Shown here: piece after piece, positions 15,452 through 63,257 of the stretch
Position numbering within the stretch: position 1 is the stretch's first letter
Layout: each line of letters begins with the position of its first letter
Virus record (IMG/VR): IMGVR_UViG_3300033146_004128
Location: 1 to 64,000 of that record
Length of the DNA stretch: 64,000 bases
DNA from: a virus
Reading direction: 5' to 3' (one strand)
Translations under genes and position numbers: made by a program
The notes under the pieces: model-generated
Seen by the model: the letters and a program-made list of their open reading frames with translations, nothing else
The model's database searches: none
Told to the model about the DNA's origin: nothing

Positions 15452-16915
15452 ATGTATAACGGGAAGATGATAATCGACCTATTCGCAGGAGGTGGAGGCG
15501 CAAGCACAGGAATAGAGCTCGCACTTGGTGTGAGTCCTGACGTGGCAGTAAACCACGATCCACAGGCTATTGAACTTCATAAGGCAAACCATCCTGATAC
15601 GAAACACTATATTGAAGACGTATATGATGTTGACCCATCTATGGTTTGTGGAGACAATGAAGTTGCTCTACTATGGATGAGCCCAGACTGTAAGCACTTC
15701 AGCAAAGCAAAAGGTGGAAAGCCTGTAAGTTGCGATGTTAGAAGCCTTGCATGGGTTGGAATAAGGTGGGCGAAAGCTGTGTCTCCAGATATTATCATAC
15801 TTGAGAACGTAGAGGAGTTCCAAGACTGGGGACCTCTAGATGAAAACAATAAACCTATCAAGAAAGATAAGGGTTTAATATTCAAGATTTTCATAAATAC
15901 ACTTGAGGAGATGGGATATACGGTTGAGTGGAGAGAACTTAGGGCATCAGACTATGGTGCTCCCACCATAAGGAAGAGACTATTCGTTGTGGCGAGCAAG
16001 AGTGGACCTATAGTATGGCCAGAGCCTACGCATGGTGATCCGGAAAAGTATCCGGATAGAGAGCCTTGGAAAACAGCAGGAGATTGTATTGACTGGTCTT
16101 TGCCAGTATATTCAATATTCCTTACAAAAGAGGAAGGAAAGAAATATGGAGTCAGAAGACCGCTCGTCAAGAACACACTTGACAGAATCGGTAAGGGTGT
16201 CAAAAAGTTCATCATTGACAATAAGAAACCTTACATCGTCAAAAACGAAACCAGCTTTGTCTCAACCTATTATGGACCAACAAAAAATGGAGGTGCCCGT
16301 GGTTCCAAGATCGATAGTCCAGTTGGAACAATTACGGCAGGCGGCAGCAGGCACGCATTGTGTACCGCCTTCCTCGCCCAACATAATGCAGGAAATGTCG
16401 GAAGAAAAGCAGAAGAACCATTTTCCACTATCACAACAACGGGGTCCCAGCAACAGCTCGTTAAAGCAGATCTTGAAGAGGTTCGTGGATACATAATGAA
16501 AATGAGGAATGGGAACATTGGATTTAAGACAGACTCTCCAATGCATACCATAACAGCAGGTGGAGGTCACTTTGCTGATGTTAGAGCGTATATTATGAAG
16601 TATTACGGTAATGGAGAAGGATCGGTACTGGATGAACCGGCGCACACCATAACAACAAAAGAGAGATTCGCTCTTATTGAGGTTGAAGGTGCTGAGTATG
16701 AGATCGTTGACATTGCAATGAGGATGTTTACACCTCGTGAGCTATACAGAGCACAGGGATTCCCTGAGAGCTATAAAATAAATATTATGTATGAAGGTAA
16801 GCCCCTTCCAAAAACTGCGCAAGTAAGAATGTGTGGGAACAGTGTAGTTCCTATGCTTGCAAAGATTTTGGTTGAGAGTAATGTAAAAATTTGTGAAGGA
16901 GAAAAAGTTGCCTAA
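15452..16915 (+). CDS. DNA (cytosine-5) methyltransferase
   Basis: Transfers methyl from S-adenosylmethionine to cytosine C5. 487 residues with the family's motifs in order: motif I DLFAGGGGAS, motif IV as SPDCKHFS (Cys nucleophile; a phage-type variant of PPCQxFS), motif VI LENVEEF, motif VIII IRKRLFVVA and motif X GNSVVP. The target-recognition region between VIII and X contains repeats of about 35 residues built on P-xx-TIT (SPVGTITAGG, PFSTITTTG, SPMHTITAGG, PAHTITTK). No cognate restriction enzyme is visible, so it is probably an orphan enzyme protecting phage DNA. ATG 15452 follows AAAGGA. Confidence 0.95.
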   Translation: MYNGKMIIDLFAGGGGASTGIELALGVSPDVAVNHDPQAIELHKANHPDTKHYIEDVYDVDPSMVCGDNEVALLWMSPDCKHFSKAKGGKPVSCDVRSLAWVGIRWAKAVSPDIIILENVEEFQDWGPLDENNKPIKKDKGLIFKIFINTLEEMGYTVEWRELRASDYGAPTIRKRLFVVASKSGPIVWPEPTHGDPEKYPDREPWKTAGDCIDWSLPVYSIFLTKEEGKKYGVRRPLVKNTLDRIGKGVKKFIIDNKKPYIVKNETSFVSTYYGPTKNGGARGSKIDSPVGTITAGGSRHALCTAFLAQHNAGNVGRKAEEPFSTITTTGSQQQLVKADLEEVRGYIMKMRNGNIGFKTDSPMHTITAGGGHFADVRAYIMKYYGNGEGSVLDEPAHTITTKERFALIEVEGAEYEIVDIAMRMFTPRELYRAQGFPESYKINIMYEGKPLPKTAQVRMCGNSVVPMLAKILVESNVKICEGEKVA

Positions 16916-60430: not shown

Positions 60431-60715
60431 TTATTTTTGGCACGGGAATGTGCCTAGTATGTTTTGACCAAGAACGACATCGAATGTACAACCATTGTCT
60501 TTGACGTCTTCTTCTATTGCCATATTGTATAGTACGATATCTCCTACTGATACAGGTATGCTTGGGCTATCGCCTACTGCGATTACCTCTCCTCTTGCTG
60601 GATATTTCTCTGTTCTTACTGTCTCTACTATGATTCCAGTTGAACTCATTTGTGGCTCAGGGATATGCTGTACAGCGACGATGTCCGGTCCGGGTATGAA
60701 GTTTATAGTACTCAT
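60431..60715 (-). CDS. groES: GroES-like co-chaperonin
   Basis: 94 residues, the usual length. PGPDIVAVQHIPEP, then SSTGIIVETV, ARGEVIAVGDS, VSVGDIVLYNMA and a final VVLGQNILGTF follow the Cpn10 order: core strand, mobile loop, G-x-V-x-A-V-G turn, V-G-D-x-V-x-Y strand, D-I-L-A end. It would cap host GroEL during folding of phage proteins, as T4 gp31 does for the capsid. No GroEL is encoded here. Confidence 0.88.
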   Translation of the reverse strand: MSTINFIPGPDIVAVQHIPEPQMSSTGIIVETVRTEKYPARGEVIAVGDSPSIPVSVGDIVLYNMAIEEDVKDNGCTFDVVLGQNILGTFPCQK

Positions 60716-61324: not shown

Positions 61325-61519
61325 CTATTGTGTGCTAAATGAGGTATTATTACAGTGCGTGAAAACACGCCACCTTCACAGGTGTGAGCACTAGCTCAAC
61401 ATGCACGGCAATCTTTCCCCTCAAAGTTTTGTCTTAGCATTTCTATCCTTTCATAGCTACACGTTGTATGCCTAGCCGGTGAGGTGGTCCGGACCTTGCC
61501 TGCCAGGTTACGTGTAGCT
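61321..61519 (+). ncRNA. Possible structured RNA with own promoter
   Basis: TTGACT (61321-61326) and TATTAT (61345-61350) are spaced by 18 bases. The 183 bases without a gene that follow hold GCGTG/CACGC around AAAA, and at the end a strong 10-bp stem, AGCTACACGT (61455-61464) with ACGTGTAGCT (61510-61519), enclosing an inner hairpin. It runs antisense into the last codons of the HsdS-like gene. Could be a regulatory RNA; the evidence is structure and a promoter-like sequence only. Confidence 0.35.
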
Positions 61520-62146
61520 CCTAGACAATGACTCAAGTTCACTCACAAGATCATCTAACTTTACAAGATTCTCTTCTATCTCCCTATCAATATCAACAGC
61601 CCTCTTAACTATGTCTATGTCAAGTATAGAGTCAGGCACTTTGATCTCACCAAGAAACTTCTTATCAATGGCATGCAGCCTCTTTCTCTTTCCCAGCTCT
61701 TTCGCTACCTCTCGTACAACTGTATCACTCTGCAACCACAGAGATAGACTCACAGCTATATTGAACGTAGGACATCGCAGGTATAACATATGTCTTCCGG
61801 CAATAGTAGGTATGTCATCAAAGGGTATAAACCTATAAGCTCCAATATACTTATCAAGTCTTGGTATCACAATACAGTTCTCATCAAGAGCATGTATGTT
61901 CATAATAGCAGTAGAGTATTTCTCGTTAGGTATTTCAAGAGTACTTCTGAAGCTCTCATTGGGTCTACGATTGTCTTCAAGCACACGCACTTTTCCTATC
62001 TTAAACTCACCTCTTCTTTGTGCGAATTTCCTCTGTACATTGTGTACTGTTATACCATGCTCTGCCATGAACAATTCGAGGTCAATAAGCTCTATGCCTC
62101 TCTGGTAAAACTCTCTTCTTATATCACTGTACGGTATGTTACTCAT
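61508..62146 (-). CDS. HsdS-half-like protein, probable DNA-binding regulator
   Basis: 212 residues; the start at the sixth in-frame codon is chosen because AAAGGA lies six bases before it. Residues ~85-212 read like one half of a type I restriction specificity subunit: ENCIVIPRLDKYIGAYRFIPF, TIAGRHMLYLRCPT, a W-L-Q-S-D segment, KRLHAIDKKFLGEIKVPDSI, then a coiled-coil helix with DIDREIEENLVKLDDLVSEL. A full HsdS has two such halves. No HsdM or HsdR is near. The N-terminal ~85 residues are a separate basic region. Two palindromic sites flank its promoter, so autoregulation is likely. Family assignment is by pattern. Confidence 0.6.
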   Translation of the reverse strand: MSNIPYSDIRREFYQRGIELIDLELFMAEHGITVHNVQRKFAQRRGEFKIGKVRVLEDNRRPNESFRSTLEIPNEKYSTAIMNIHALDENCIVIPRLDKYIGAYRFIPFDDIPTIAGRHMLYLRCPTFNIAVSLSLWLQSDTVVREVAKELGKRKRLHAIDKKFLGEIKVPDSILDIDIVKRAVDIDREIEENLVKLDDLVSELESLSRSYT

Positions 62147-62163
62147 ATCATGTCCTTTCATAA

Positions 62164-62221
62164 AATACCAGCCTAGGTATTTACAAAAGTATTATATCAT
62201 AAAAATACCAGGCTAGGTATC
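62164..62221 (-). promoter_or_regulatory. Promoter flanked by two bipartite palindromes
   Basis: On the minus strand TGA-TATAAT (62191-62199) is the extended -10 box. Site 1 at 62164-62181 is AATACC-N6-GGTATT, over the early transcript. Site 2 at 62204-62221 is AATACC-N6-GGTATC, where a -35 box would lie. Both spacers read AGSCTA and the centres are 40 bases apart. This is a classic operator layout for a symmetric dimer. Confidence 0.7.
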
Positions 62222-62401
62222 ACGTCGTAGGTATATAAAAAAGTGCTCGTACACCCCTAGTCACAACACAATACTTAACCACAGTCCCATATAAGAGAAG
62301 AGACCCAAGTAATAACATAGAGAACATAGAAGAGAGATAAGAGATATTAGTAACGGAGTAGATTCGTTCTTCGGACTGATGCTGAATGAAACGTTTGCTT
62401 A

Positions 62402-62460
62402 GTCTGTGTGCTTTGGGATGAGGTGGGGAGGAAGTCTGCCTCATCCAAAAACACATAGAC
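62402..62460. ncRNA. Long hairpin, 22-bp imperfect stem
   Basis: The 22 bases 62402-62423 pair with 62439-62460 (one G-U, two mismatches), with a 15-base purine-rich loop. The inner eight pairs, GGATGAGG with CCTCATCC, are perfect. No T-tract follows on either strand. Likely a structured RNA or processing signal. Confidence 0.5.
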
Positions 62461-62663
62461 GACTGCCCTCACGTGAGTGGGCGTTCACGTGCCACCAGGA
62501 TGGTAGCATAGGCTTGCCGATGGATCAAATGAAACCTTTGTGGGCTCTCACCGTCCGTAGTGGTATTATAGCGTGATAGTTCTTAGTCTGCAATAGTTCT
62601 ATTTTGGAATGTACGAGAGGAGGGGCTCAGCGTTAACCGAGCCCATATGAAGTAAAAATGTCA

Positions 62664-62694
62664 ATCAGGTCATAGGGTACTAGTCGGACCTGAT
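62664..62694 (+). repeat. Stem-loop with ACTAGTCGGA, copy 1
   Basis: ATCAGGTC (62664-62671) pairs perfectly with GACCTGAT (62687-62694). The loop holds CATAGGG and ACTAGTCGGA. A purine-rich AAAAAAGGA follows. Copy 2 is at 62835-62876. Confidence 0.55.
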
Positions 62695-62714
62695 GTCTTA
62701 AAAAAGGATGAAAA

Positions 62715-62766
62715 GTGATTAACATCACGTTTGCGAAGAGCTTTTTACTCTTGCATCAGCATTATA
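62715..62766 (-). ncRNA. Possible short minus-strand RNA
   Basis: A minus-strand TATAAT (62761-62766) is followed by AAGAG/CTCTT around an A-rich loop, and then GTGAT/ATCAC (62724-62728 with 62715-62719) directly followed by four T on that strand, the form of a minimal intrinsic terminator. The product would be about 45 bases. The promoter lacks the TGN extension. Confidence 0.3.
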
Positions 62767-62805
62767 TACGAGTAAACCTTAAAGTATTATGAGCGGTGTG
62801 ATTTT

Positions 62806-62823
62806 TGAGTATGCCTATCGTAG
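62806..62823 (+). repeat. 18-bp direct repeat, copy 1
   Basis: TGAGTATGCCTATCGTAG, identical to 62937-62954, 131 bases apart. One copy lies on each side of the second ACTAGTCGGA stem-loop. Confidence 0.8.
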
Positions 62824-62834
62824 GGATAAAAATG

Positions 62835-62876
62835 GCATGTTGCCCCATAGTGGAATACACTAGTCGGAGCACATGC
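62835..62876 (+). repeat. Stem-loop with ACTAGTCGGA, copy 2
   Basis: GCATGT (62835-62840) pairs with ACATGC (62871-62876) around a loop with CATAGTGG and ACTAGTCGGA, in the same order as copy 1, although the stems differ in sequence. That compensation suggests a conserved RNA or DNA structure. AAAAGGAGG follows at 62881-62889 without a good start codon. Confidence 0.5.
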
Positions 62877-62936
62877 TTGTAAAAGGAGGTAGGATCTTTC
62901 TTGCGATAGCAGTACAGCATATCTTTCTGGCTATCA

Positions 62937-62954
62937 TGAGTATGCCTATCGTAG
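62937..62954 (+). repeat. 18-bp direct repeat, copy 2
   Basis: Identical to 62806-62823. Confidence 0.8.
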
Positions 62955-63029
62955 TGAATGATACTATCAGTACGAAAGAGAATATAGCAATACTAGAGGA
63001 TAGTATCACTGTGTACATAGAGTCTTTTA

Positions 63030-63257
63030 TCATATCTTCTTCTTCCTTACGCCTTTGGTTCCCATTCTTGGAGCACGGTACGGTCTCTTAACAGACTTCA
63101 TGTAGCGAACGCTCTTTGCTTGAGGTTTTCTCTGGTACTCGGAGTAGCTCATCGCCTCCTTGTCCGCATCTATGTTGTTTTCTGGGGATACCTCTTCAGG
63201 TGTCCTTCCTGATAGTTTCTTGCCAGCAACATTTTTCTTCTTGCTACACTTTTTCAT
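63030..63257 (-). CDS. Small very basic protein
   Basis: 75 residues with Lys/Arg-rich ends (MKKCSKKKNVAGKKLSGR; KGVRKKKI) and a polar middle. It is probably disordered and nucleic-acid-binding, perhaps packaged with DNA. AAAGGA and a TGT-TATAAT promoter precede it. Confidence 0.75.
   Translation of the reverse strand: MKKCSKKKNVAGKKLSGRTPEEVSPENNIDADKEAMSYSEYQRKPQAKSVRYMKSVKRPYRAPRMGTKGVRKKKI

Follow-up and report, generated by a model that had tools for sequence, protein, structure and literature searches.

A stand-alone half-HsdS-like phage protein with predicted operators at its own promoter suggests that a restriction-enzyme part has become a switch for its own gene

The Locus and Its Neighbourhood

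The DNA analysed here (the window) comprises bases 1–64,000 of a virus record of 187,664 b, whose phage is called G000 below, while two distantly related sister phages, G002 and G006, serve for comparison. The portal gene of the window phage, at 70–72 kb of the record, shares 28% identity with those of the Vibrio phages D181, D148 and D69 and 24.5% with the portal of Salmonella phage Arash. Since genes for helicase, primase, ribonucleotide reductase and thymidylate synthase are present as well, the virus is a large tailed phage.

The gene under study lies on the minus strand at 61508–62146 and encodes a protein of 212 aa, with one region resembling a target-recognition domain (TRD) of a type I restriction specificity subunit (HsdS) and a C-terminal helix. 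The open reading frame extends from 61508 to 62161 (minus strand), but the ATG at 62146 is the likely start codon, because the Shine-Dalgarno-like sequence GAAAGGA (62153–62159, minus strand; 6 nt 5′ of ATG 62146) is located upstream of this ATG and downstream of the one at 62161. The same ORFs, of about 203 and 244–290 aa, follow the gene in G000, G002 and G006. A phage-encoded Cpn10/GroES-like protein, at 60431–60715 in the window, is also found near the gene in all three phages.

Both flanks of the gene are non-coding or nearly so. On its 3′ side, the stretch 61330–61505 holds no gene and its minus strand shows a long-range pairing, AGCTACACGT...ACGTGTAGCT. On the other side, about 640 b (62222–62860) without a convincing gene separate it from a 57-aa membrane ORF (62860–63033, minus strand); this region contains a hairpin with 22-nt arms (62402–62460) and blocks that are conserved in the sister phage L023, for example AAACC.TTGTGGGCT and CCCCATAGTGGAATACA. 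Rfam gave no match for 61330–61505 and none for 62222–62860. An RNA element in these flanks was considered and rejected, Rfam being silent and the strong fold seen at 62222–62860 having no counterpart in L023. The DNA methylase of the phage is a C5 cytosine enzyme (PF00145) encoded at 15452–16915, whose 487 aa are spread across the 324 positions of the profile, so that the enzyme seems to contain about 150 aa of inserted sequence.

Relation to HsdS

The first-pass annotation had judged by eye that the protein looks like half an HsdS, and had proposed a structural comparison. For the sequence side of this comparison a home-made profile was built from 24 HsdS halves, taken from EcoKI of E. coli K-12 and from twelve plasmid-borne HsdS proteins. 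When the alignment of the three phage proteins was compared with this profile by hhalign, a probability of 91.7% and a score of 46.7 were obtained over 116 columns, covering residues 80–205 (61532–61909, minus strand); by comparison, 200 column shuffles scored 13.1 ± 2.6 (maximum 24.3), and the alignment in reverse scored 19.7. Each of the three phage proteins also aligns singly to the profile, in the same register (hmmsearch). PADLOC Specificity_I gives a weak match, for the window protein only (E = 0.009).

On the structural side, AlphaFold2 (AF2) run with the three family sequences produced a weak model (pLDDT 46.7, pTM 0.44), and the single-sequence model of the window protein was useless (pLDDT 36.7). 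The former model, with low confidence, shows a long C-terminal helix at residues 177–210 (61517–61618, minus strand), the predicted equivalent of the conserved-region helix by which HsdS pairs its two TRDs. In a Foldseek search of the PDB, its top match was Esub1 (probabilities 0.99 and 0.98), and the other entries at a probability of at least 0.08 were a third Esub1 chain, 3okg, 5ybb, 8w0p (BsaXI S), 1yf2 and 7vru (PacII S), so that every entry at this level is an HsdS-type protein; since the query model is poor, this ranking is supportive only. The half-HsdS look is thus borne out by hhalign and Foldseek.

General domain libraries do not recognise the protein. Neither Pfam, PF01420 included, nor NCBIfam gave a match up to E 10 for the window protein, nor did PHROG, and PF01420 was silent as well in both sister phages carrying homologues, where the controls worked. 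PDB sequence searches with the three-member family returned nothing meaningful, and the viral structure library held no convincing match to the predicted model. In the window phage, profile comparison singled out no other ORF as HsdS-like.

The methylase partner is missing too, in agreement with the first-pass annotation: PF02384 (HsdM) found nothing in G000, G002 and G006, with positive controls in 14 of 14. At the junction between TRD and helix, a PPLxEQ-type motif (P..EQ) is present in 17 of the 24 HsdS halves and in none of the three phage proteins. Altogether, alignment and model support homology of the phage protein to one TRD plus one conserved helix, i.e., to half an HsdS. Judged from its sequence, it is a relative of HsdS but, having neither HsdM nor the PPLxEQ motif, does not fit the usual definition of a working type I specificity subunit.

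Paired Dyads at the Promoter

Two dyads that resemble operators lie upstream of the gene, as found by inspection of the sequence and supported by shuffles. Dyad 1, AATACC-AGCCTA-GGTATT (AATACCAGCCTAGGTATT; 62164–62181), coincides with the expected transcription start or follows it immediately, and dyad 2, AATACC-AGGCTA-GGTATC (AATACCAGGCTAGGTATC; 62204–62221), lies over the –35 region. They are alike at 16 of 18 bases, are spaced by 40 bp start-to-start and have between them an extended –10 box, TGATATAAT (62191–62199, minus strand), which is identified by consensus match only. The operator-like sites predicted for the window gene overlap its own promoter. This arrangement, two dyads flanking an extended –10 box, had already been described from the first reading and is confirmed, with the addition that the exact motif (AATACC-N6-GGTAT, or the shorter ATACC-N6-GGTAT) occurs at these two sites only in the 187,664-b record.

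With one mismatch allowed, 6 matches are found on both strands of the window where 0.73 are expected, a number reached by none of 100 dinucleotide shuffles of the window. A match at 143869, with N7 spacing and inside an ORF of 1819 aa, was set aside. A motif-free paired-dyad score, computed on the 170 b upstream of the gene, is reached by 0/200 shuffles; across the genome of the phage, 6 of 1558 windows attain it, the gene's own region included.

The distribution of the sites also bears on an earlier suggestion, that the protein might mask host type I sites or act as a decoy for them. Such a role is unlikely and is rejected here, because the phage has just two sites in 187 kb and both stand at the gene's own promoter.

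Homologues With Different Dyads in Sister Phages

The sister phages were first found through their terminase and portal genes, and their whole records were then searched for homologues of the half-HsdS-like protein. These are present at the syntenic place in G002 (32% identity, E = 2.9e-35) and in G006 (29%, E = 4e-16), the range of identities being given as 25–32%. A profile scan of viral contigs returned only these two, and no homologue was found by tblastn with the three proteins against phages and with the window protein against plasmids, or by pattern scans of viral contigs and genome contigs. Vibrio phage D181 and a further four sister contigs gave no homologue either, and the contig of another phage, G005, stops before the expected locus.

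Directly upstream of its homologue, G006 carries TGTYCGT-N7-ACGRACA twice (for example, TGTTCGT-N7-ACGGACA), 38 bp apart, and G002 carries three dyads with the half-site TGTACGATA, spaced 42 and 26 bp from start to start. In all three phages the start codon is no more than about 110 b away from the dyads, while the sequences in G002 and G006 are unrelated or only partly related to those of the window phage. None of 200 shuffles reaches the paired-dyad score in G002, and likewise in G006; among windows of the same genome, it is reached by 3 of 1371 in G006 and 2 of 514 in G002, own regions included. When the genomes were scanned with PWMs, own sites scored 24.6–25.1 in the window phage (best elsewhere 13.8), 25.6–26.4 in G006 (12.4) and 20.7–23.8 in G002 (16.9). 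As each matrix was built from the phage's own sites, what counts in these figures is only the distance between own sites and runner-up.

The position relative to the promoter is not the same in every phage. The second dyad of G006 is followed, after about 20 b, by the nearest TATAAT, so that the sites are upstream of or over the –35 region and do not flank the –10 box, a placement that would fit either occlusion of the –35 region or activation. No clear promoter was identified upstream of the homologue in G002.

The proteins were also compared segment by segment. In the variable part, residues 56–80, G002 and G006 share 9 of 26 residues (35%) as against 4/25 and 3/25 (16 and 12%) for the pairs with G000, whereas over residues 81–212 the closest pair is G000 and G002. 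Since the operators of G002 and G006 both read TGTnCG, this is a hint, from three sequences only, that residues 56–80 may follow operator similarity.

Autoregulation and Its Alternatives

These observations point to negative autoregulation as the probable function: a stand-alone protein derived from half an HsdS, without a methylase partner, would bind as a dimer to paired palindromes and repress its own gene. The reason is that the putative operators diverge in sequence together with the protein and yet keep their place in three phages, as autoregulation predicts. The repressor idea of the first-pass annotation, in which binding is a prediction, gains support from the same fact, since two homologues have dyads of another sequence in the corresponding position.

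In the proposed mechanism, two copies of the protein would pair through the C-terminal helix, as in truncated type I specificity subunits, and the symmetric dimer would bind the bipartite palindrome ATACC-N6-GGTAT, with contacts made by the TRD rather than by the N-terminal helix. The –10 box of the gene's predicted promoter sits between the two palindromes, whose spacing amounts to just under four helical turns. Since dyad 2 overlies the –35 region and dyad 1 the start of the transcript, a pair of dimers bound there would shut out RNA polymerase, and the resulting repression would keep the level of the protein low. Against this reading count the small size of the family, with three members, and the half-sites of 5–9 bp, which exceed those of many TRDs in length. 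As there is no other strong site in the phage, the protein may either only set its own level or have a further target, which would be in the host or would itself be a protein.

The most serious rival is an ordinary HTH homodimeric autorepressor, in which N-terminal helices (about residues 5–45) read the operator and the HsdS-like rest only dimerises or senses something. The AF2 model has, with low confidence, helices at residues 6–15 and 23–29, and the N-terminal 45 residues or so look helical; the sequence ..LELFMAEHGITVHNVQRKF.. is HTH-like by eye; and it is at the N terminus that the protein departs furthest from HsdS, the hhalign alignment beginning at residue 80 of the protein and 68 of the template, so that residues 1–79 are about 12 longer than their HsdS counterpart. 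The geometry of the operator is of no help in the choice, because it suits any two-fold dimer. For this reason a symmetric bipartite target, which the first reading had taken as a sign of a half-HsdS, is indeed present but was overstated as a diagnostic feature, an ordinary HTH homodimer or any other homodimeric repressor being expected to use one. However, none of the three proteins matches a Pfam HTH family up to E 10, the putative HTH is broken by a deletion in G006, and the residues that track operator similarity (56–80) lie outside it, all of which make this explanation rather unlikely, though it deserves more weight than those that follow.

It is quite improbable that the protein is a phage specificity subunit that joins the HsdM (and HsdR) of the host and redirects or poisons the type I enzyme of the host, with the promoter sites secondary or coincidental. 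Half-S subunits do work with HsdM dimers (PMC3874165, PMC6158711) and the architecture of the protein is that of an S subunit, but the absence of PPLxEQ from all three phage proteins, against its frequency in HsdS halves, and of HsdM from the three phages speaks against this reading, which also leaves unexplained why three phages have dyads that change in sequence and stay fixed at the promoter. Marginally lower still is the chance that the dyads act in the mRNA, or bind another regulator of host or phage, and are unrelated to the half-HsdS-like protein. A 6-bp hairpin could form from dyad 1, which is part of the predicted 5′ leader, but dyad 2 and both G006 dyads are upstream of the predicted transcription start, and the sites differ between phages despite conserved neighbours and occur only here, unlike the site of a host factor.

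Comparison With Known Systems

Half-HsdS proteins as such are already known. Their homodimers recognise split palindromes, as in EcoR124I HsdS-delta-50, which reads GAA-N7-TTC, and natural half-S cases are NgoAV and M.AhdI (type 1 1/2 S subunit) (PMC3874165); an engineered half-S of Sau CC398 reads ACC-N5-GGT (PMC6158711). GAC-N5-GTC is a further target of such truncated or natural proteins, which also include EcoDXXI truncations (PMC3874165, PMC6158711). The phage protein shares with them the architecture of one TRD and one conserved helix, but they work inside a methyltransferase with HsdM, whereas the phage protein lacks both a neighbouring HsdM gene and the PPLxEQ motif, its predicted half-sites are longer, and its sites are found only at its own promoter. 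A 187-aa half-S gene is also present beside a hypothetical gene on the Enterococcus faecium plasmid pK195-6b-A (L057, 629–1192), with no HsdM gene annotated within the 1.9 kb examined. Esub1, the best structural match, which was crystallised with Prx (PDB 8vsq, 8vsr), also stands alone, as a chain of some 200 aa, and is itself HsdS-like by sequence. The plasmid proteins closest to it carry annotations as S subunits or N-6 methylases, and Esub1 was not found in the phage collection.

Among regulators, RptR, a repressor adjoining type I R-M operons, binds as a homodimer to repeated sites and represses the promoter of its own operon (PMC12255303), which resembles the arrangement predicted for the phage dimer. 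Unlike the phage protein, RptR controls an R-M operon and recognises direct repeats of the 6-bp palindrome TAGCTA, and the abstract of that report makes no claim of a relation to HsdS (PMC12255303). Homodimeric regulators that read split palindromes, with BmrR as the example, have been suggested to be akin to half-HsdS dimers (PMC6158711); that analogy is speculation, whereas the phage protein is a sequence relative of HsdS at operator-like sites of its own. HTH repressors such as LacI, Cro and the C proteins of R-M systems have a recognised HTH domain, which Pfam does not find in the phage proteins. In the open-access literature searched, there is no described case of an HsdS relative as a transcription factor, and none of a phage HsdS relative at private operators of its own.

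Implications

The comparison of the three phages suggests that phages have turned a part of a restriction enzyme into a switch for their own gene. Whether this extends to a class of phage transcription factors, in which a type I restriction TRD rather than an HTH reads the DNA, and whose operator specificity, drifting fast like the specificities of R-M systems, would give each phage a private autoregulatory circuit, is an evenly balanced question. If binding is confirmed, a module of a defence enzyme would have been domesticated as a regulator, and these phages would provide natural TRDs with their target sequences printed beside the gene, a set that would help in reading TRD specificity from sequence, which is an open problem for restriction enzymes.
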